DNA of 64,000 bases from assembly GCF_033473495.1 (NCBI RefSeq), contig NC_088942.1, positions 1-64,000 on the forward strand, read 5' to 3'. The stretch is from Cercospora beticola (Eukaryota > Ascomycota > Dothideomycetes > Mycosphaerellales > Mycosphaerellaceae). The translations under genes were made by a program, and so were the position numbers. Position 1 is the stretch's first letter. Each line of letters opens with the position of its first letter. Below are positions 1 through 34,517 of the stretch, piece by piece. The notes under the pieces were generated by a model that saw nothing but the letters and a program-made list of their open reading frames with translations, ran no database searches and was not told the DNA's origin.

Positions 1-206
1 ACCCTAACCCTAACCCTAACCCTAACCCTAACCCTAACCCTAACCCTAACCCTAACCCTAACCCTAACCCTAACCCTAACCCTAACCCTAACCCTAACCC
101 TAACCCTAACCCTAACCCTAACCCTAACCCTAACCCTAACCCTAACCCTAACCCTAACCCTAACCCTAACCCTAACCCTAACCCTAACCCTAACCCTAAC
201 CCCTAA
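1..206. repeat. Telomere, (CCCTAA)n array
   Basis: About 33 uninterrupted copies of CCCTAA run from the first base, reading as TTAGGG toward the chromosome end. This is the standard telomere repeat of filamentous ascomycetes. The last unit has an extra C (positions 200-206), after which the sequence changes at once to RIP-mutated retrotransposon. The window therefore begins at a true chromosome end. Confidence 0.98.
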
Positions 207-4959: not shown

Positions 4960-6390
4960 AACTAGACTATACTTTCTAATAAGAAATAATAATATAAGTA
5001 TATCTAGGCTATAAAGTATAGTAGGCTAAATACTAGTAGAATAGAAAATAGAAAAGAAATAAAAAGAAAAGAAAAGTAAAAGTAGAAAAGAAATAACTAC
5101 TAGTATAGAAAACTACTAATTTCTTTATTATTAGACTAACTCTATATAAAGAACTTACTAAACTAGAGAGTATAATAGTTATACTCTTAAGAATAGAGTA
5201 TATTAGAATAAAGTAATACTTTACTAAAAGAAGAGTTCTAGATTTTATACTAGACTATAAATATAAATAGAGATATAAGATACTAAAATATATATATATA
5301 TTCTACTTAAAATAGAATAAAAGAAAATATATACTATTCTAAATAGAAATATCTATAAACTAGAAGAATCTAGCTAATATAAAAAGAAAGCTATATATAA
5401 TAGTAAAGTAGCTTATCTAAGAAGAAGTTCTAGACTAATTCTTATTTATAAAAGAAAAAGTATAGAAAAATAAAAGAAAAGAGAATAGAAAGAATAGAGT
5501 CTAGTAAAAGAAGAACTTACTAGATATCTAGTATTATTTAAAAGAAAATAGAAGTAAAGGAAGTAGCTATATAAGTTATAAATAAAAAAATATATAAAAG
5601 TTTTTTAAAGGCTTTTCTTTTAACCGAAATCTATAGAGTATACTACTTACTTTAGTTAAAAGAAGTAGACTAGTATATAAGAATTATCTATCTATTTATT
5701 AAACTATACTATAATTTAAAATAGACTCTCTAGCTCTATATTAAGTTAATATTAGTAATAGAAATAGAAAAAAAATATTAACTAAAGTATTATAATAGAA
5801 TATATATATAAACTTAACTCTAGTTTATATAAAGTACTTCTATTAATTCTAAATAGAATTTTATTATTTTTTTAAACTAGTATTTTTTATTTCTTTATTC
5901 TATATAATAATACTTTATAACTATACTAGATTCTTAGTATAAAGCTATTCGACTTTAAAAGTCTAGAACTATATAAAGTAGAGCTAATAAATAGAATAGA
6001 ATACTACTAAGTTAGTATAGTATTTTCTAATATAAATTAGAAGTATTTAGATTTATTATATTAGAAATTAATACTATTAATATAGAACTTATTATTATAG
6101 AATTATTAGTAGATAACTAATAGTATTTAACTTATTATTATTAGTAGTAACTACTATAATAATAGACTTTATCTACTAGTAATAGTAACTTTCTATAGCT
6201 TAAAAAGTATTTATTTCTATTTTAAACTAAAAATTAATAAAGATATCTAGATTATAAATAAGTCTTTATAGTATCTAGTTATATTTAGTTAATACCTATT
6301 TAGCTTTTATACTTAAATACTTACTTAGACTAGAATTCTACTCTATTATACTTTATAATTCTATTTTCTAGCCTATATATTCTATAGCTT
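4960..6390. other. AT-rich RIP-type sequence, no element recognised
   Basis: Composition is like the copia remnant (no CpA/TpG seen) but I could not find copia, gypsy or transposase landmarks in the frames I translated. It is probably another mutated repeat or the LTR and flank of the copia element. Confidence 0.4.
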
Positions 6391-6540
6391 ATATACTCGC
6401 TTACTATCCTACTATAATAACCTCGATTACTCCTCGGTAGTAATACGTATAGTAGCCTCGATTACGCTCTCGATCTTAATTCTAATTCTATCCTTAAATT
6501 ATACTATAATACTATAGTATAGCCGTCTCTTACGTAGTCG

Positions 6541-7975
6541 CATTCCTACCGTTGCTTCGCTCTAATACCGTCGTGTTAGCGCCTCGAGATCGCGAAGGCA
6601 TCGTAGTGCCGACTCGATAGGAGCCTAGGCAGTTTCGTCGTAGTAACCGTCGGAGGACGAGGTGTCGACGCGAACCCGCTCACAGGTTTTGATGATCTGG
6701 ATCGCTGACAGAGGGAGGTAGCGCGGCGAACGTTCGCCTTGTTCGAGGATGAGACCGCTGCTGGTGCTCATTTGGGTCGGTCGCGTCTTGCGATGTCGTG
6801 TCCGGAGCGCGCCATGTTGAAGGCGCACTCTTCACTGGGCCAAGGTCATGTGGACCTTACCTTCATTCTAGTATTCAGCAATCGATGACTGGAGGCCGAG
6901 AGGAGAAGGCTGGAGAATCGGCGGAAGAAGCACTCGAGCGTGAAGTGCGAAGTTTGCCAAGAAGCGACAGCTGGCCGATGCCAAACTCTCTTCTGCACAT
7001 AAGCCTCCTGTATTTGACTGCACCTGTTGCGGCAGAGCGAATTGCATCGGCTTTTGTTCGGCCCTATGCCTCTTACCATCTCCCTGGATCTCGTGAGGCC
7101 TGAGACAGACCATGACCAACCGGGTTCTCGGTCCTGCAAGAATGCACGCCTTTAGCAAGCATTAAGAGAGGGAGCGACCGGCCCATCTCTGCAATTCCGG
7201 ACACGAAGAACATGGAAGAAGCCCTTCTCCTACAGCGTGTCGGCAGTGCCAGTCAACCTTTCCAGTCAGCTCGAATGACACAGAATGTATGCCGAAGGTT
7301 CCATCGGACACGCAGGGACAACGGTCTTCGAAATTCGCGCGCACTATAACAGACAAGGTCCTCGCAATCTCAGGAACCCCAGCTCACACCATGCGAGCAT
7401 GCCGATAAGCTTTGCTTGGACGCTTGTTAGGGCCGGCAGACGAGAAAAGACAAAAATATCGACTCCTATCCTTCACTGTCTCACAAGGTTGCGGGAGCAT
7501 CGGATCTGGGTCTTTGGCCTTACACGACTCTCGAATAATCCTAGCTTCGACTGTGACGCTGCTATGCAGCGTAAAATTACAGTCATAGGACTGCCAGAAT
7601 TCTCGTCCCGGAGCTGAGCTGACCACTTAGCATATCATCTCACCTTATAACTTTTCCAGGTGTAGTAAGGCTTGCGCTGGCCCTCTCAGTGCGTCGTGCA
7701 TGGGATTGAAGTGTAGTGCGACCGTGGTGTGACGTTCACTGGTATTCTTCATCGAATACGAGTTCGGCCAATTTCTGACATGATCCAGGCTGACATGGTT
7801 CACTATAGTGCGATGCTTGTCGATGAAAGTCTATGCCCATGTTCTCGAATTCGAGGTCGCGAAGGGCATGTATAAGTATCACTGGGCACTTCAACACACC
7901 AATTCACATCTCAAATCAATCAACAGACTCTCGACCACCCACCTCCCCTTCACAACTTAGACTCTTTACTCTATC
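6541..7975. other. Gene-free transition and promoter region
   Basis: Base composition becomes normal. The short ORFs present (up to about 120 codons) overlap one another on both strands and show no signal peptide, domain or splice logic. I see no gene here. The distal end contains the promoter of the effector gene that starts at 7976. Confidence 0.5.
7871..7878 (+). promoter_or_regulatory. TATA-like element of the Ecp2-like gene
   Basis: TATAAGTA lies 98 bases before the ATG and is followed by a C/A-rich pyrimidine-leaning leader, a common arrangement in fungal promoters. Inferred from sequence only. Confidence 0.45.
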
Positions 7976-8574
7976 ATGCATTTCTCCACTGCTCTTACCG
8001 CCCTGGCCGGCGTCCTTGCCTACAGCTCGCTTGCTGCGGCCAGTCCACTCGCTGAACCACAGAACGCTGGCAGCGGCAACTCTCCAAGCAACAGATGCAA
8101 CACCCGGGCTGTGACAGGCAACCAGGTTGTTCAGGGAACCGCACCGACTTGGAACGATTGCTACACCCTTGCGTAAGTGAACGACAGCTCCAGTAGATGC
8201 GGATGGGAAGCTGACTCTTCGCAGCGATAAATTCCAGAACGAAGAGTTCTTCAGAAAGAGCATCAAGGTGGAGGGCAACTACAAGCAGACGTACGGAACC
8301 TGTGGCTTTTCTATAACAGCCAAGGCAGGAGACTTCCAGCTCGGCAAAGGTAAGACACCTCCTCCCTACCTAGAGCATTCACCATACTGACGCCATGGCA
8401 GATGATGCCGCCGACCTTATCAGAAGCACCGCTGGTGACCTTGGTGCCAAGAGTGGAGCATACCAAACTGGCCTTGTGTCATGCGACACTCCTGGAACGG
8501 CTGGAGGAGACCGCGGCCGCCAGACAGGATGGACCATCGGCAACTTGGACGCTCCAGGCCCAAAGCAAGGATGA
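7976..8574 (+). CDS. Ecp2-like secreted effector (Hce2 family)
   Basis: Three exons by frame continuity: 7976-8172, 8225-8349 and 8402-8574, giving 164 residues. Introns are 52 nt each with GTAAGT/GTAAGA donors and CAG acceptors. Residues 1-22 form a signal peptide ending in an Ala-rich site. The mature part has four cysteines, as in Cladosporium fulvum Ecp2, and the family landmarks W-DCYTLADKF, YGTCGFSI, GKDDAADLI, LVSCD and a C-terminal TGWTI. Ecp2/Hce2 proteins are secreted, apoplastic effectors that can trigger necrosis or host recognition. No break is visible. It sits about 1.4 kb from the RIP domain. A role in host interaction is inferred from the family. Confidence 0.85.
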
Positions 8575-9319
8575 TTGCATTGAGATACAGCTACAGAAGA
8601 CTGAGAGATCGTTGGTTCGGTCGCCTATTCAACTTGTACATTATATTTGCTACTCAGACAATGAACGCGTTCGCAGTGCCGACAATCAGAAAGAATCTCA
8701 CGGGAGCAGTGAATGCGTTTCTTGAAAGTGATCGAAGAGTCGTGCACAGGGCGTAGGATATTCAAGTCTCCTCCAAATTGTTGGCCACGCCAGTTCTTGA
8801 GGCTGGAAGTCGATGCATACGGCTTCCCTCGTGGTCCTGTGGTGAACTGGTCGTGCAACAACTGGAATGCGTCCACGGCTGCGTCTGCGCCAGTCTTCCC
8901 GCATGCCTTGCAGGTTTCGCAGTCCTTTCTCAGCCAGTACTGTGACGTTGTGCTAGCATTCGAAGTAGTGGTGATGATGCTGCTTTTTCAGAATGTCAAT
9001 GGTCGGAGGGTGCTTGCGCGGTGCTTATTCGCGGTGCTGCGTGGAGTGCAGAAAGCTCATCAGGTTGTGGCGACAGCATCTCGTTCTGCAGACCATCGCG
9101 ATCTACGCCAGTCTGCGCAGCGAACTCGGAGAAGCATTCGCTGCAGCCAGCCGCTGTTCTTGCATCCATCCGAGGTGACCTGAAGACCGCAAGCTCTTGA
9201 TAAGGATGCCGCAATGGTTGGACGGAACAATTGCTCTCTCGTGAATAACCCGCAATTCTGCCAGCAGGGACATCTCAGACTTGCAGCTTGCACTCTTTCC
9301 TCAACGTTTTTGACTTAAT
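8575..9319. other. Region without a confirmed gene
   Basis: Overlapping short ORFs on both strands. On the minus strand, two stretches (about 9214-8996 and about 8960-8720) have a coding-like residue mix with CxxC spacing (CETCKACGKTG), but they lie in frames I could not join with good splice sites and there is no signal peptide. Treated as undetermined. Confidence 0.3.
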
Positions 9320-10171: not shown

Positions 10172-11090
10172 TCACCAGTGCGCATCACGCTTCTGCATCG
10201 CCTCCTGAAGCCACGCTGGGATCTCCTGATCGTTCACGCCGCGCCTGAGGATGATGTTGTCGATGGCGGTGTAAAGCGTCTTCCACCAGTTTGGGTCGCG
10301 GCGGTCTAGATCACCGACGTCTCGTCTGAGAATGAGGTTGTCAATGGTGGAGTAGAGAGTCTTCCACCAGTTGGGATCACGACGTGTCAGAGCATTGATG
10401 TCACGCCTGGTGTTCACACGCCCGAAGTCCAATGATAGTGGGTGGGAACGATAATAGCGCTGCATTACAAAGTCAGCAAAGGATACTGTTTTCATCTGCA
10501 CAAGCCGCGACTGGGTAAGGTCTTGAGTTGCGCGTAGAACGTAGACTCCAAGCCAGCTCCAAGACGAATTTGGTATTGTCTCTTACCTGAGCTTCCTGGT
10601 AACTGCGCTGTGCATCCTTGTTGTTCAGGTCAAGATCAAACGAGCCAGGGTCGGCAGATCGCTCATTGATACCAAGATGGTTTGCGATATCCTCGCCCCA
10701 GTCAAGCGCTCCACTGAAAACATCGTCGTACCAGTGTGGGTCTGGCACAGCAGATCTTTCATTAATGCCAAGATGGTTGGCAATGTCCTCACCCCAGTCC
10801 AGAGCGCCGCTGAAGACATCATCGTACCAGTGAGGATCAGGTCGGGCGGATCTTTCGTTGATTCCGAGATGGCCTGCGATGTCCCCGCCCCATTCTAGGG
10901 CACCTTGGAAGACATCGTCATACCAGTGTGGATCAGCTGCCCTCTTCTGATAGCTGCCAGCAGCTTCGAGAAGTTGGATGACATCGTCATTGCTGAGCGG
11001 TCGAGGACGAGCAGCAGGCAGGGCACGGACGGCTTCAGAAGAGGCCAGAATAGCCAAGGCCAGCTTGGAAGAAGTGGAAAGGGCACGCAT
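10172..11090 (-). CDS. Secreted precursor with two families of tandem peptide repeats
   Basis: Two exons: 11090-10587 and 10495-10172, 275 residues. The intron has a GTAAGA donor and GCAG acceptor and is phase 0. I chose the Met at 11090 because it starts a signal peptide (MRALSTSSKLALAILASS); an upstream in-frame Met at 11126 would precede it. After a KR site come three 32-residue repeats beginning DPHWYDDVF and ending LGINERSA-P. The second exon has two 27-residue repeats beginning DPNWWKTLY and bounded by RR, and ends in KR-DAHW. Paired basic sites suggest kexin (Kex2) cleavage in the secretory pathway, as for fungal kexin-processed peptides, pheromone precursors and dikaritin-type RiPPs. 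I recognise no family and no modifying enzyme (for example DUF3328/UstY) nearby. Function unknown. Confidence 0.75.
10217..10378 (-). repeat. Two 81-nt in-frame repeats (basic-bounded DPNW units)
   Basis: Units start at 10378 and 10297 on the minus strand. The first 19 residues (DPNWWKTLY--IDN-ILRR) recur with three conservative changes. Each is preceded by RR and ends in RR, so kexin would release near-identical 17-19-residue peptides. They share the D-P-x-W start with the exon 1 units. Confidence 0.85.
10647..10934 (-). repeat. Three 96-nt in-frame repeats (acidic DPHW units)
   Basis: Units start at 10934, 10838 and 10742 on the minus strand, with an exact 96-nt period. Units 2 and 3 encode the same 30 residues (the varying position is the residue before the terminal Pro) yet differ at many third positions. 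Unit 1 has four or five substitutions (for example Gln for Ser and Gly for Glu). Each unit looks like an acidic amphipathic helix with conserved Trp and Tyr. Confidence 0.9.
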
Positions 11091-27501: not shown

Positions 27502-30134
27502 ATGCAGCTTCGGGGAGTCTTTTGTTCAGGAGCACTGCTGCTTCTGCAAGCTGTAGCTATCAAGTTACCTTCGGAGTATGACACGATATGGACCAGCCAG
27601 AGCTTGAACTCCTCGGGATCGATGCCAGTGGGCGGCGGCGATGTCGGTCTCAATGTCTGGGTTCAAGACAACAACCTTCTGTTCTACATCGCCCAAAGCG
27701 GCGCTTTCGATGAGAACAATTCGCTTCTGAAGTTGGGCAGAGTCAACATTACGATGAACCCGAATCCATTTGCCTCCAATCGGAGATCCTCTTTCCGACA
27801 GCGTCTGAATATCAATGATGGCTACATCACGATTTCTGGTGGCCTCGGGACAGAGCTAAAGATCTGGGTCGATATGGACACTTCTGACATCCACGTGTCG
27901 TCGAGGAGCAGGGTTCCGATCAGATACACTGCCTCGCTTGAGTCATGGCGAACAGAAGGTTATCAAATGGTTCCTCCCGAGCAACGTAAGCTACACCATT
28001 GATCGCCACGAGTGCTCGCCTCCATGCTGAAATCTTCAGAGCAAACATCGTGGGGAGTGAGCGCAGTGCCACAGCTTCCTGTGCCATACCAACGCCCAGA
28101 TACTGTTGGCTTCACGGATAGTGGAGTGCTGAGCTATCACCACAACGATGACTTGCCACTCTGGGATGCTCAAGTGGCCGAACAAGATATTCAAGATCCA
28201 GAAAGTTTTTTTAACCCCATGAGAAACAACACCGTACGTCTTTCAGTTCTGCCGGAGTGCGCATTGCTGCAACTACTGACTACCCCAGTTTGGTCTCTTC
28301 ATGTATTCGCCAGACCTAAAGCGGACTCTGATGACCAGCGGCACATACATCAATACCAGCTACACAGGTTTTCAGCTGGCGTCAACTAAGGCATCTTCAA
28401 GGTTCTCCCTAATCATTGGGACTGATCAGCAGCAGACTACCGACGTCAACGCTTGGAAACAAGCATTGATCGCAAAGACCAAGGCCGGCTTGTCGAAAAA
28501 TCAGGCCAGCACCATTGCCTGGTGGAACGCGTACTGGGACCGGTCACACATCATCATCAATCCTGCCGCAGGTAACTCAGATCCAGGCTTTCAAGTCGGC
28601 AAAAATTACCAGTACTTCCGATACATGATGGCGTGCAATGCCAAGGGCCAGTATCCGACGAGGTTCAACGGAGGGCTTTTCACATTTGATCCGGTGCTGA
28701 CAGATCCGGAAGTTCCATTCACGCCCGATTGGAGACGATGGTCCGGAGGAACATTTACAGCTCAGAATCAGAGGCTTCTGTATTGGCCTTTGTTGAAGAC
28801 TGGCGACTTGGACATCCTCACTCAGGGCATCGACTTCTACGGAAATACATCTCCGAACCATCGCAAACTGGGCCAGCAGTACTTCGGCCTGGATGTCGCA
28901 CTGACAAGTGAGCAGTTGGACAATACTGGGCTGCCAAACATCTATGAATACAATGCGAGAGCTTTCGGCGATGATTCGGAGGAACGCACAGATCTCTATC
29001 CGCCTGGTATTGACTTCAACGATTGGCTGAGCTGGCAGCAAGACACAGCGAATGAGTTTGCGGACATGGCGATCATGGCTCGCTCCGTCTACGGCGAAGA
29101 TGTCTCCAAATGGGTGTCGTTCGTCGAATATCAACTCGCGTGGTTCGACGAATTCTATCGGCAGCGCAACGGCCTGAACTCGTCCGGAGAGCTCATCATA
29201 TACCCTGCATCAGGTGCTGAGACTTACAAGCTTGCACTCAATCCATCCTCAACTGTATCTGGCCTTGTCAGAGTCATTACCGATCTTCTGGACAGCGATG
29301 TCTCTTTGGTCAAGGGCAACACGACGTACTACGAGCAATACCGTGCGCGAGTACCCAAGACGCCGCTGCACCAATGTCCTGGTGCGACAGGTGGGTTACT
29401 CACGAGGTGCTATCTTTGACTGAGCCAATGCTAATCAGAACTCCCAGAACTTACATGCATCTCGCCCGCAACGAACTACTCTTTCGCGCAGAACACGGAA
29501 CCTTCGGCAATGTATGCCGTCTTCCGTAAGCCTATACTGACCTAACCCATGTTCAGGATTGTTGCTGATGCAGATGCAGCTTGGAGCGAATATGGTCTTG
29601 GACAACCTACAAATCTGAGCTTCGCCATCCACACCTACTTCAATGACAGTCAGGCAGCCACTTATCGCGGCAATACGTAAGCTGTTGAGCCCTTCTCTCG
29701 TTGTTACACATCACTGATGATTGACCCGCAGCGGCTGGCGACAAGACCAGATCTGGTTTGCACGAATGGGACTCACCGACCTGGCAACAGAATACATCAC
29801 AGATCGCCTCTCTGACAGCACACGATACAGGTTCTCGGCTTTCAAAGGTCCCAACTACGACTGGTCGCCCGACATCAATCACTATGGATCTGCTGCAATC
29901 GGCTTGCAAGAGATGGTGATGCAGACTTTCGCACTGAACAATACGCAAATTCGACTTCTTGGTGCTTGGCCAGCAGACTGGTCTGGTTCTTTTAAGCTTA
30001 CGGCTCCTCAGCAGACCGTGGTCCAAGGCAAGATCTCAAATTCCGAAGTCGAGAATCTGGTCGTCACCCCTTCCAGCAGGTTACAAGATGTTGTATATGG
30101 CCTGGAGAAGAGTCAACACCCGAGTTTTGACTAG
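27502..30134 (+). CDS. DUF5703-type six-hairpin glycosidase-like protein, secreted
   Basis: Six exons: 27502-27985, 28040-28233, 28289-29390, 29439-29525, 29574-29676 and 29732-30134; 790 residues. Start at 27502 gives a signal peptide (MQLRGVFCSGALLLLQAVA); an in-frame Met at 27490 adds four residues. The N-terminal block IWTSQSLNSSGSMPVGGGDVGLNVWV is the hallmark of the DUF5703 N-terminal domain found with (alpha/alpha)6 six-hairpin glycosidases. The long third exon (NYQYFRYMMACNAKGQYPTRFNGG) fits that barrel. Substrate unknown; carbohydrate hydrolysis outside the cell is inferred. No break seen. Confidence 0.8.
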
Positions 30135-31379
30135 TCGATTCTGACGGACGCCACGCATATGCAACTTTTGTCAGACCAAGGACTGGTAGCATTCGCGGTA
30201 AACCTGGCATTGTGATGATTCACGACACGATATGAAGCGAAGGATTTCGGTTTTCACAAGTGTACACAGGAAAAGAGCCAATTTGCTGCACCTGTCAGCG
30301 ATCTATTCGCATATTCCCGGATATATGTAAACTGCACTTCCAGCAGCACATAGTCTTTCGTTCCTCAATTTGCCAGTCCGACTGATGGCCACAAAGCTGT
30401 CCTCGCCCTTGAGCCGACTGTCAAGACCGAAACACATGAGCGCATGAAACTCGGAACTAGAATTTTATCCTTGCTATCACCTTGGTCGGAGATCGCAGAA
30501 AGAGGTCCGATGATTGCTGACTACAAAGCACCAGCGCTCCACGCAAAGTCCTCCACAACGTGCGTAAATACCGTTCATTTGAAATTGTATTGCTACACTA
30601 TATGATTCTGACGAGAGGAGGCCCAGGCCGACTATCTTCATGCTCAGCATTGTAGATAAGTCTGACCTGCCTAGGAATCGCCATTTGAAATCATCTGTTG
30701 CGTCGTCACTAACCCAATATCTGCATAACATATCGACCAGATGACGCAACTTCGGCCCGTGGTGGAGCAGATCGGTACATGACCACCGATGCCTCTACGC
30801 GTCGAACAAGCTCTTTTCAGATCCTGGATTACAGCACTGCACTATCCAACATGGTCAGGCGCAGCATGTGGTCCTGCTCACCTCAGTTGTGGGCCCTGAA
30901 ACCAGCGGCTCGTCCTTCGCTGGAGCTTGGCCATGCTTCGAAAGCTTCTCACGGCCTCGTTCGGCCCCCGAGCACGAGCGATGCACAATTGCATACTCGT
31001 GGGTTCTCTCATATTGATGTTCTCACAGACCCAATGCTCTGGCTCCAAGGACCCTATGACGTTGCCTCTACGATCCCATGCATGCACATATGCACGCACA
31101 AGATATCTCCCACTGCTCAAGTCCACCGGTCTCCATAGCCTATATGTCCGACGCATTGCCACACAAGAGCTCTACCTCCAGCTCATCATTCCGCATTGAT
31201 GCCGACAGCATGTCGACGCAGCATATCGCGCAAACGCGTCATACCGGCCGAACATGGCTCGTTCATATAATACCCACGCTTTGTTAGAGAGTCATTAACA
31301 TTGACCATTTGCTTGCATTCTAATCCACGCTTCCTATTATTACTTGCAACTACACTTACTGATACAAAACTAACACAAG
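30135..31379. other. Intergenic, promoter of NRPS-like gene
   Basis: No supported coding feature. A CATATAAT element at about 31264 is about 115 bases before the ATG at 31380, in an otherwise A/C-rich leader. Confidence 0.4.
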
Positions 31380-34300
31380 ATGACAGTAGGATACTTCGAC
31401 AACGACTCAACGAACGACAGAGAAGTCAAATCTCTGCCACTGGTTGTCGATGAGCTCGCTCGCGAATACTCCGATCATGTCTGGATGAAATTGCCCAAAG
31501 ATGCAGAGCTCACCACAGGCTGGCGAGACATCACATATAAAGAGCTTGGAAATGCCGTCGATGGAATGGCAAGATGGATGGGACGGGTATTCGGCATTGG
31601 ACGAAGAGCTACAGACGTTGCTGCATACATCGGGCTGAACGATGTACGATATGCTGTCGCTCAAGTGGGCTTGATCAAGGCTGGATACATGACCCTTCTG
31701 CCCTCGCCTCGAAACTCGCAAGAGGGACAAGCATCGCTGTTCTCAACCACGAAGTGCAAGTACCTTTTGTACAGTGAGGGAGTGGATGCGTACGTGGAGA
31801 CAATAAAGTCTGCTGTGCCAGGTGTGCAAGCTGTCCGTATTCCCTCCTTCGATGAGCTGGTCCAACAAGGAGCGAAGGCGACAACACCCTACCCAGGAGC
31901 ATATGGGAACCGAGTTGATGACAAGGTACTCATTCTACACACTTCCGGGTCGACTGGATTGCCCAAGCCCATTTATCACACAAACGGATCCATCGATACG
32001 CTGGGCCAGCTTCGAAACGTTCCAGCACCAAAAGGTCGACAGAACAATATGAACGCACTATTCGCAACCGAAGAACTGCTGTTCGCCATGGCACCATTCT
32101 TCCACATGATGGGCACCGTCGTAGTATGGACCTCACTACTGTGCAGACGGCCAGTCTGCTATGCACCTCCCACGAAGCCACCGACCCCAGATCTCATCAT
32201 CAAATGCTTGAATCAGACGAAGCCTGATGTCGCACTGGCTCCTCCATCGGTGATCGAAGAAATCGTCGAAGCCCCAGGAGGCTTAGACGCCATCAGCCAC
32301 CTCAAATTCGTGTTCTACGGCGGCGGCCCATTAGCCAACGGCACCGGAGACAAAATCAATCAAGTCAGCCGCGTCGTGGCAGTGATCGGATCCACAGAAG
32401 CAGGACTCGTGCCTGCACGAATTACCGAAGACAAAGATGATTGGAACTACTTCGAGTGGTCACCGGGCTGTGGCGTCGACATGGAAAAGGATGGCGAAGG
32501 TCTGCATGAGATGACGATCAAGCCAGCAGACAAGCGAGTGCAGGCAATCTTCCATACCTTCCCAGATATTTCGGAGTGGCGTACCAAAGACCTCTTCGAA
32601 GAACATCCCAAGCGAAAAGGTCTTTGGACTTATCGGGGCCGGAAAGATGATGTGCTCGTCTTGAGTAATGGAGAGAAGTTCAATCCTGTCGGGTTTGAAA
32701 AGACGCTAGAAAGCTATGCCGCAATCAAAGGAGCACTAGTGGTAGGCCAAGCACGGTTCCAGACAGGTCTGATCATTGAGCCTGAGTGGCACTTGGTAAA
32801 GCACGATGATCCAGCCGAGTTAGTGGACGAGCTCTGGCCGCTCGTTGAACGAGCCAATGCTGCCGCACCAGCACATGGGCGCGTCTGGAAATCCAAGATC
32901 GCGATCACGAAGAGGGAAAGACCATTCAAGCGTGCACCGAAAGGGTCGATCGTCCGCCGACAAACCCAAGAACTGTACAAGAACGAGATCGACGCTCTCT
33001 ACTCGAACGAAGGCAGCGATAATGAGCTTGGGCCATTGAGCAGGGACGTAGATGCTGCAGGAGCGAAGGAATATCTCCGTCGAGCATGCAAGGCTAAAGA
33101 CTTCGCGATTCCGGAAGATGCCTCTGACGACACAGACATCTTCAGCTACGGCATCGACTCGCTCCAAGTGATGGCACTGTCCTCGACACTCAGTCACGCC
33201 ACGGGAACTTCAGTCTCGCCTCGGGTCATATACAGCAATCCTACGATCAATGGTCTTGCCCAGTACCTGAGCCACGGAAATGACGGAGATGCGCTGGCTG
33301 GAGCTCAACAGACGAGTCGTGAGGAGATCATGGAGAAGATGATACAGAAGTACACGTCTGATCTGTCGGCCGAATCAGCTCGTGAAAGTGTTTCACGTCC
33401 TGACAAACACACCGTCGTCCTCACCGGCTCGACTGGCTCACTTGGCAACCACATTCTACAAGAACTCATTGCCTCTCCCGACGTCGCACACATCTACGCT
33501 CTCAACCGCTCAGAAGACGCCGGTTCCCGACAAGCCAAGCAATTCGAAGATCGAGGAATCGCAGCAGACTTCAGCAAAGTCACCTTCCTCGCCACAAACT
33601 TCGGCAAAGACCACTTCGCCATCCTAGATTCCACCTACAACGAAATGCTCCAAAGCGTTGACATTTTCATCCACAACGCCTGGGCCGTAGATTTTAACAA
33701 AACCCTCCCAACCTACGAAGAAGCCCACATAGCCGGTACCCGTCGCGTAATCGACTTCAGTCTCGCCTCAACCCACAACGCCCACATAATCTTCATCTCC
33801 TCCATCGCAAGCGTAGGAAATTGGTTCGCCAGCAACCCCAACGATAAACTCGTGCCCGAACGACTCTCCTCAACACACTCCGTCGCCCTCCCCCAAGACT
33901 ACGGCGAATCCAAACACGTCGCTTCCACGATCCTCGCCCACGCAGCCGAGACCACTCATACACCAGTAACAATCGTCCGCGCAGGCCAACTGGCGGGTTC
34001 AGCAAAAAGCACATCCCCCTGGAACCGCCACGAATGGCTCCCAAGTCTAATCCTCACCTCTTCATCCCTCAACCTCATCCCCTCAACCCTCGGAACTCAA
34101 GATACAATCGACTGGGTCCCAATGGACTTGGCCGCGAAATCAGTCTTCGAAATATCCACCACCTCCTCTTCAACCACCTCCTCACTAACTCAAGTAACCC
34201 ACCTCGTCAACCCCCACACCTCAACCTGGCAAACCTCCCTCCTCCCAACAATCCACTCCCGCCTTTCCTCCGCAAAAATAGTCCCATATTCAGACTGGCT

Positions 34301-34517
34301 CGAGAATTTGAAAGCAACTCCAGTCACTCCCGAAGAACTCGAAAAGAAACCAGGACTCAAAATTCTAGATTTCTACGAAGCGTTACAAGCAGAAGGAGGA
34401 GGTGGACTACCACCGATGGACACAGTCGAAACACAGAAAGTGAGTGAGACAGTAAGAACGATGCCGGCGATTGATGGGAAAATGATGGAGAAGTGGTTGG
34501 GGGAGTGGGGACTCTAG
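31380..34517 (+). CDS. NRPS-like adenylation-thiolation-reductase enzyme
   Basis: A single exon of 1,045 residues with three domains. Adenylation (about 20-540) has LHTSGSTGLPKP (A3) near residue 183, YGGGPL, GSTEAG, YRGRKDDVLVLSNGEK near 418 and the catalytic-Lys region APKGSIVRR near 525. Thiolation (about 570-640) has the phosphopantetheine site FSYGIDSLQ with Ser near residue 592. Reductase (about 680-1040) has the NAD(P)-binding TGSTGSLG and YGESKHVAST (Tyr-x-x-x-Lys). Such enzymes activate a carboxylic acid, load it and release it as aldehyde or alcohol. No condensation domain is present. Neighbours offer no other biosynthetic genes, so the product cannot be guessed. Confidence 0.92.
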   Translation: MTVGYFDNDSTNDREVKSLPLVVDELAREYSDHVWMKLPKDAELTTGWRDITYKELGNAVDGMARWMGRVFGIGRRATDVAAYIGLNDVRYAVAQVGLIKAGYMTLLPSPRNSQEGQASLFSTTKCKYLLYSEGVDAYVETIKSAVPGVQAVRIPSFDELVQQGAKATTPYPGAYGNRVDDKVLILHTSGSTGLPKPIYHTNGSIDTLGQLRNVPAPKGRQNNMNALFATEELLFAMAPFFHMMGTVVVWTSLLCRRPVCYAPPTKPPTPDLIIKCLNQTKPDVALAPPSVIEEIVEAPGGLDAISHLKFVFYGGGPLANGTGDKINQVSRVVAVIGSTEAGLVPARITEDKDDWNYFEWSPGCGVDMEKDGEGLHEMTIKPADKRVQAIFHTFPDISEWRTKDLFEEHPKRKGLWTYRGRKDDVLVLSNGEKFNPVGFEKTLESYAAIKGALVVGQARFQTGLIIEPEWHLVKHDDPAELVDELWPLVERANAAAPAHGRVWKSKIAITKRERPFKRAPKGSIVRRQTQELYKNEIDALYSNEGSDNELGPLSRDVDAAGAKEYLRRACKAKDFAIPEDASDDTDIFSYGIDSLQVMALSSTLSHATGTSVSPRVIYSNPTINGLAQYLSHGNDGDALAGAQQTSREEIMEKMIQKYTSDLSAESARESVSRPDKHTVVLTGSTGSLGNHILQELIASPDVAHIYALNRSEDAGSRQAKQFEDRGIAADFSKVTFLATNFGKDHFAILDSTYNEMLQSVDIFIHNAWAVDFNKTLPTYEEAHIAGTRRVIDFSLASTHNAHIIFISSIASVGNWFASNPNDKLVPERLSSTHSVALPQDYGESKHVASTILAHAAETTHTPVTIVRAGQLAGSAKSTSPWNRHEWLPSLILTSSSLNLIPSTLGTQDTIDWVPMDLAAKSVFEISTTSSSTTSSLTQVTHLVNPHTSTWQTSLLPTIHSRLSSAKIVPYSDWLENLKATPVTPEELEKKPGLKILDFYEALQAEGGGGLPPMDTVETQKVSETVRTMPAIDGKMMEKWLGEWGL

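Follow-up and report, generated by a model that had tools for sequence, protein, structure and literature searches.

Which products may be released from a repeat-containing gene close to a chromosome end of Cercospora beticola (Mycosphaerellaceae), and where may they act? The gene is located in a stretch of 64,000 nucleotides (here called the window), which is the start of contig C8 in an assembly of 36.07 Mb and 10 contigs. It is encoded on the minus strand, with its ATG at 11090 and its stop codon at 10174-10172, and its spliced product is identical at every residue to the public hypothetical protein CB0940_10039. A preceding sequence-only reading had given exactly these coordinates and had proposed an undescribed kexin-type repeat peptide precursor. 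Kex2-type sites, repeats and relatives in sister species support the assignment to this type. Within the searches made, "undescribed" is correct for the sequence itself, as no paper with the locus tags of the Cercospora genes was found. The type, in contrast, is known: KEX2-processed repeat proteins (KEPs) have been described as widespread and mostly without assigned function (Le Marquer 2019, Umemura 2020; PMC6339444, PMC7329392). We consider it probable that the gene encodes a precursor similar to that of alpha factor, from which Kex2- and Ste13-type enzymes release linear secreted peptides that act in biotic interaction. Peptide production by such processing is highly probable in our view. 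The biotic role is proposed with much more reserve. The gene structure, the repeats, selection on their copies, the spacers, the relatives and genes of the kexin and DPPIV types can be read from the genome and are described in the following.

All elements that had been listed previously are present: a signal-like N-terminus, a KR site, three 32-residue units with DPHWYDD, two units with DPNWWK and a final KR-DAHW. The earlier reading had missed, among other things, a 127-nt intron that separates the two arrays and the monobasic boundary of the long units. Because other in-frame acceptors exist (for introns of 91 and 76 nt), the splice given here has the status of a model. The N-terminus is hydrophobic, and outside of it the highest 19-residue hydropathy mean is 0.37. 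From the -3,-1 rule, the signal peptide is presumably cut after V-R-A. The three long units of 32 residues (L1 to L3) start at residues 53, 85 and 117 and are followed by a tail; their array scores 314 in Tandem Repeats Finder. There is no dibasic site between them, and each is closed by a single Arg (INER). The short units (S1 and S2) had been described as RR-bounded and 27 residues long. They are RR-bounded and spaced by 27 residues, but the fragments themselves have 17 residues; 27 is the repeat period, made up of the unit, a six-residue linker (DVGDLD) and two RR pairs.

Two kinds of peptide are predicted. The long one has about 25 residues and is acidic (charge -5 to -6, core HWYDDVFSGALDWGEDIANHLGINE). 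The short one has 15 residues and a charge of 0, with the sequence NWWKTLY(S/T)(T/A)IDN(L/I)IL. Both start with aromatic residues. The short units are amphipathic, with a helical moment of 0.47-0.48 that is reached by 1.1-1.3% of shuffled sequences. Pfam returned four weak matches to CB0940_10039 (best E-value 0.0092; its 16.9 bits lie below the curated cut-off of 25), and a PDB sequence search returned one match at the level of noise (E-value 0.79). The AlphaFold2 model, computed from a two-row alignment, has a mean predicted local distance difference test score (pLDDT) of 38.2 and thus supports no fold. The features are listed in the table.

Table. Features of the precursor gene and of its surroundings (positions in the window; aa, amino acids; ORF, open reading frame; NRPS, nonribosomal peptide synthetase)
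Feature	Position	Strand	Remarks
Whole gene	11090-10172	-	two exons; putative secreted repeat-peptide precursor of 263 aa; spliced translation is CB0940_10039
Exon 1	11090-10587	-	
Intron	10586-10460	-	127 nt, GTAAGA...TGCAG; between long and short arrays; agrees with the public model
Exon 2	10459-10172	-	
Putative signal peptide, aa 1-23	11022..11090	-	hydrophobic core LALAILASSEAV; layout common to two relatives
Pro-region, aa 24-50, with KR at its end	10941..11021	-	from sequence; the C. zeina relative has a similar one
Spacer Ala-Ala, followed by Asp-Pro of L1	10935..10940	-	Ste13-type X-A/X-P dipeptides
Long unit L1, aa 53-84	10839..10934	-	predicted core HWYDDVFQGALEWGGDIAGHLGINE(R)
Long unit L2, aa 85-116	10743..10838	-	
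Long unit L3, aa 117-148	10647..10742	-	31/32 aa identical to L2, 20 nt differing
Short unit S1, aa 196-212	10328..10378	-	DP + core NWWKTLYSTIDNLIL, RR on both sides
Short unit S2, aa 223-239	10247..10297	-	DP + core NWWKTLYTAIDNIIL, RR on both sides
C-terminal KR-DA-HW, aa 258-263	10175..10192	-	
Telomere repeat (ACCCTA)n	1..202	+	window begins at the chromosome end
Adenylation-thiolation-reductase (NRPS-like reductase) ORF	31374-34517	+	20 kb from the precursor gene
Giant ORF	37936-61101	-	single frame of 7721 aa; no Pfam match at E <= 0.01

The predicted cut points are followed by X-Ala and X-Pro dipeptides. In C. beticola these are KR/AA-DP/HWY, INER/SA-RP-DP/HWY, INER/SA-VP-DP/HWY, INER/SA-DP/GSF, RR/DP/NWW (twice) and KR/DA/HW (slashes set off the dipeptides). 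In the relative from Cercospora zeina (BST61_g11553), KR/DA-EA/HWW, KR/NA/FDFF and RR/DP/SVW are found. With the NER sites included, 13 such dipeptides follow the cut points of CB0940_10039 (shuffled mean 1.86) and 12 those of the relative from Cercospora berteroae, CBER1_11672 (shuffled mean 1.96), and 0 of 20,000 shuffles were as high in either case. BST61_g11553 has 7 (shuffled mean 0.88; 2 of 20,000 shuffles as high). Ala or Pro occupies position +2 in 16 of the 23 distinct cut points from the three species, and positions +1 and +3 in one each. The sequence-only reading had noted D-[PA]-x-W as shared by all units. D-[PA] is indeed common to them, but we think that it is mostly a Ste13-type trimming spacer, which explains it better than a place in the mature peptide. 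In C. zeina, E-A is found at the position of D-P, so that a dipeptidyl aminopeptidase fits better than a helix cap. According to one of the KEP surveys, Ste13-like signatures in Ascomycota are generally dedicated to alpha pheromones alone (PMC6339444).

The repeat copies differ much in their codons and little in their residues. DNA identity among the long copies is 73-79%, and the differences fall mainly on third codon positions (18/20 for L2-L3, 19/26 for L1-L2, 15/23 for L1-L3 and 8/11 for S1-S2). Synonymous exceed nonsynonymous codon differences in each pair, with 16 versus 5 for L1-L2, 13 versus 5 for L1-L3, 18 versus 1 for L2-L3 (nonsynonymous rate dN 0.02; synonymous rate dS beyond calculation) and 8 versus 3 for S1-S2 (dN 0.07, dS 1.65). 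Codons that differ while coding for the same residue are about as many as expected for random codon choice (L1-L2: 16, expected 16.4; L1-L3: 13, expected 16.4; L2-L3: 18, expected 18.7; S1-S2: 8, expected 9.2). A neutral simulation, with the same number of changes placed randomly and half of them transitions (a crude model), yielded, out of 20,000 copies per pair, none that reached the real protein identity for L1-L2, L1-L3 or L2-L3 and 27 for S1-S2. Because the synonymous sites are nearly saturated and the protein has been kept, the peptide is under selection. The copies look old and held by this selection, rather than derived from recent slippage.

Kex2 is reported to accept an aliphatic residue at P4 and, besides Lys, also Arg, Thr, Pro, Glu or Ile at P2 (PMC8528282). 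INER, with Ile at P4 and Glu at P2, fits this relaxed motif, which is found at 4 of the 12 single Arg residues of CB0940_10039 (the INER sites of the three long units and one site in the pro-region). The long unit of C. zeina ends with NE-KR in place of INER. Taken together, this makes Kex2 cleavage at INER plausible. The C. beticola genome has one match to P_proprotein (the P-domain of kexin-type proprotein convertases) and five to DPPIV_N, two of them strong.

Relatives were identified by searches with the sequence, then with a two-member and finally with a three-member alignment. At E <= 10, these returned 2, 3 and 3 proteins among 1862, 7997 and 7991 scored candidates. All proteins found are from Cercospora, and the third search added none; candidates had to share 5-residue words, so that distant relatives can escape. 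The first of these searches missed the C. zeina protein, which has an E-value of 4.9e-22 in the profile search and 1e-17 in a pairwise comparison. A check for homologues in sister species, as had been suggested, thus turned up CBER1_11672 and BST61_g11553. CBER1_11672 has two long and three short units, versus three long and two short ones in C. beticola. In BST61_g11553, the leader has been retained along with a single long and a single short unit. Its interior holds another peptide in four copies, NAFDFFGL(D/N)D(D/N)LKFNGGYDDKK, each flanked by KR sites. The genome of C. beticola lacks a separate counterpart of these interior peptides (NAFDFFGLDDDLKFNGGYDDKK). Residues 53-95 of BST61_g11553 match weakly (E-value 0.001, 47% identity) to a stretch that extends from L3 into six residues of the tail behind it (GSFDLD), and the interior peptide may have arisen from this tail by amplification. 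From the differences between the three species, interior cassettes turn over while the leader and the end cassettes persist. No paralogue of the gene was found in its own genome: a search with CB0940_10039 gave two matches, both within the gene, and one with BST61_g11553 gave five, all within the CB0940_10039 gene.

Maturation would proceed as in yeast alpha factor. The signal peptide would be removed first. Kex2 would then cut past KR and RR and presumably also past the relaxed site I-N-E-R. A putative Kex1-type carboxypeptidase would trim the basic residues, and a Ste13-type dipeptidyl aminopeptidase would strip the X-Ala/X-Pro spacers AA-DP, SA-RP-DP, SA-VP-DP, DP and DA. Two kinds of linear peptide would result, an acidic one of about 25 residues and a neutral one of 15 residues. 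These would act extracellularly in biotic interaction, with cassettes turning over among species. We infer expression of the gene, the actual cleavage and the activity of the peptides.

A number of points weigh against this interpretation. The NER sites joined the spacer test after the pattern had been seen, and the tandem copies are not independent. When only dibasic sites are considered (counted by hand in the three species), Ala or Pro is at +2 in 12/19, at +1 in 1/19 and at +3 in 1/19. Two of those 12 sites precede linkers or tails (DAADMQ and DADEQE, both in C. berteroae), and the 7 sites that lack Ala or Pro at +2 precede linkers or tails in six cases and a degenerate core in one (C. zeina KR/EILDFFG). 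An aliphatic P4 is found at only 4 of the 7 dibasic sites of CB0940_10039. For the acidic long unit, amphipathicity is only weak (reached by 3.9-13.5% of shuffled sequences). Ste13-like runs are restricted neither to this gene nor to pheromones: an unrelated Cys-rich ORF of this genome, probably secreted (C5:1803914), bears AR-DA-EA-EA-DP-KYY and is no obvious pheromone. Ste13-like signatures are reported for non-pheromone KEPs of Basidiomycota and Glomeromycotina (PMC6339444). Knockouts of KEP genes in Coprinopsis are reported to have no detectable phenotype (PMC9769878), so a knockout may be silent here as well. The evidence is drawn from sequence throughout. Moreover, D-P could cap a helix at its N-terminus, and S-A-x-P-D-P could be no more than a normal linker, with the long array staying uncut as a chain of 135 residues. 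The product would then be a secreted helical repeat protein, and cutting would be confined to its RR-bounded part. The long units do lack a dibasic site between them, the structure model draws helices over the units, and D-P is a common helix start. However, that model, with its low mean pLDDT, supports no fold; the matching unit end in C. zeina bears KR, with NA after it; the relaxed Kex2 motif accommodates INER; and X-A/X-P dipeptides follow three of three INER sites in CB0940_10039 and both in CBER1_11672. We consider an uncut long array rather unlikely. We give hardly any credence to a pseudogene, a non-coding repeat or an annotation artefact. Such a reading could point to the subtelomeric position next to a 6-kb AT-rich tract with a state resembling repeat-induced point mutation (RIP). 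The frames are, however, open, similar proteins exist in two other species, the copies are under purifying selection, and the gene is devoid of a RIP-like dinucleotide bias.

As to the role of Kex2/Ste13-processed peptides, the subtelomeric place, the fact that relatives were found in one plant-pathogen genus only, and the cassette turnover lead us to favour, tentatively, a biotic interaction by effector-like or antimicrobial peptides outside the cell. We rank this ahead of signalling and of surface coating, both of which we doubt. In the former, the gene would encode a pheromone-like or self-signalling precursor, its products would bind to a receptor of the fungus (Ste2 or a different G protein-coupled receptor), and the species-specific cassettes would serve as a recognition code. 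The short core of 15 residues is within the pheromone size class of 9-24 residues, and a gene for a Ste2-type receptor is present (C1:1635735-1636640). Two types of alpha pheromone, two-Cys and PYGxPxG, are reported from Dothideomycetes (PMC6339444), but CB0940_10039 is devoid of Cys and of PYGxPxG, and it combines two different core types in one precursor. Two-Cys alpha pheromones were searched with three exact DNA patterns, which gave 9, 10 and 10 matches at 26 distinct places (control patterns: 3, 2 and 5); the patterns were built from known pheromones, and this is a weak test. No small secreted precursor with repeated cores is present among the 25 places that were read (the 26th is on C10), a negative that depends on guessed patterns, one frame and the absence of introns. 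Because Ste2 is present and no canonical alpha-pheromone precursor was found at the places read, the signalling reading is kept. It is tempting to speculate, with equally low confidence, about a Cercospora-specific pheromone-style cassette precursor with conserved leader and flanks, in which interior peptides are lost, gained, amplified or swapped, and whose species-specific Ste13-trimmed blend signals to the fungus or to the host. Surface coating would be brought about by amphipathic cell-wall peptides on hyphae, like the repellents of Ustilago maydis. The short units would suit such a function by their amphipathicity, but the long unit is strongly acidic and weakly amphipathic, relatives in a single genus hardly suggest a basic hyphal function, and we know of no Ste13-type trimming in repellents. 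As a precedent, Rep1 peptides released by Kex2 form water-repelling fibrils on hyphae (PMC8528282). A ribosomally synthesized and post-translationally modified peptide (RiPP) had also been considered by the sequence-only reading, which had recognized no modifying enzyme nearby. A RiPP precursor of the dikaritin type, cyclised by UstYa, could account for a signal-like N-terminus and Kex2-bounded repeats containing Tyr and Trp. The core is, however, unlike ustiloxin or phomopsin. UstYa (DUF3328) has 63 genome matches at E <= 0.001, none of them in the window and the nearest at 262094 of the contig, 251 kb off. Tyrosinase has 25, again none in the window, with the nearest at 400316 of the contig, 389 kb off. 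At these distances, and with no UstYa match within 250 kb, we reject a dikaritin precursor as very improbable. The gene is real, intact, under selection and of the kexin type, and probably does not encode a RiPP.

The remaining window was analyzed for Pfam domains in 29 of the 30 ORFs of at least 150 amino acids outside the gene and a giant ORF (28577-29209 was left out), in 10 shorter ORFs near the gene and in the giant ORF itself; 36 ORFs of at least 150 amino acids overlapping the latter were left out, and small exons can escape. No match typical of RiPP modification was found among the scanned ORFs. The adenylation-thiolation-reductase is the sole biosynthetic gene of such kind among them. 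Other matches are to an AA9 lytic polysaccharide monooxygenase, ribonuclease T2, DUF5703 (two ORFs), Pil1 (two ORFs), the CSTF2 hinge and RRM, and, below the cut-off, to glycosyltransferase-25 and GFA. The giant ORF is rich in Ala, Ser, Glu, Asp, Lys and Pro and has KKGKK-type stretches. The precursor gene is about 10 kb from the telomere, which is followed by an AT-rich tract (GC 0.22) up to about 6.2 kb. Between positions 200 and 6200, the ratio (CpA+TpG)/(ApC+GpT) is 0.00 (to two decimals) and TpA/ApT is 1.74. CpA and TpG are practically gone, which is an extreme RIP-like state. From 6200 to 9300, the former ratio is normal (1.21).

If our interpretation is correct, an ascomycete plant pathogen runs the alpha-factor maturation line (Kex2, Kex1 and Ste13) on peptides that do not look like mating pheromones, and the peptide sets of sister species change through cassette turnover in one precursor. 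The predicted peptides of 15 and 25 residues are exact and cheap targets for peptidomics. Linear peptides derived from mushroom KEPs have been detected by mass spectrometry (PMC9769878), so such a test is practicable.

How does the precursor compare with known systems? One survey counted 1193 KEPs in 226 species, 77 with two motif types and two with three (PMC6339444); the other reports 7878 KEPs in 1345 of 1461 strains (PMC7329392). Cercospora is not named in the main text of either. The KEP rule was re-run in simplified form (cutting past residue 23, a local BLOSUM62 score of at least 35 replacing FIMO, the last fragment kept). Fragments of at least two residues delimited by KR/RR number 8 in CB0940_10039, 9 in CBER1_11672 and 9 in BST61_g11553, and thus lie above the minimum of four. 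Similar fragments between dibasic sites, of which the rule asks for at least three, number 3 in CBER1_11672 and 4 in BST61_g11553, but only 2 in CB0940_10039. The C. beticola protein thus works like a KEP without formally falling under the rule that its relatives pass, and genes of this sort can be overlooked by surveys that demand dibasic sites and three repeats. It shares with KEPs a signal-like N-terminus, repeated units and KR/RR sites, and differs by two core types and by long units bounded by the monobasic INER. Ascomycete alpha-factor precursors also have X-A/X-P dipeptides past Kex2 sites and cores with an aromatic residue close to their beginning; unlike them, the C. beticola precursor has no two-Cys or PYGxPxG core, and it has two peptide kinds, the long one with about 25 residues. 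Ustilago maydis Rep1 likewise provides a plant pathogen with repeat peptides released by Kex2, but the C. beticola precursor carries Ste13-type spacers. The likeness to Candida albicans Ece1, the candidalysin precursor, extends at most to several peptides from one Kex2-cut precursor, one of them amphipathic. Secreted Kex2-bounded repeats are shared with dikaritin/ustiloxin-type precursors, which differ by the modifying enzymes that have no match near this gene. Novel features are spacers of the Ste13 type next to cores that do not resemble known pheromones, the monobasic ends of the long units and the interspecies cassette turnover.
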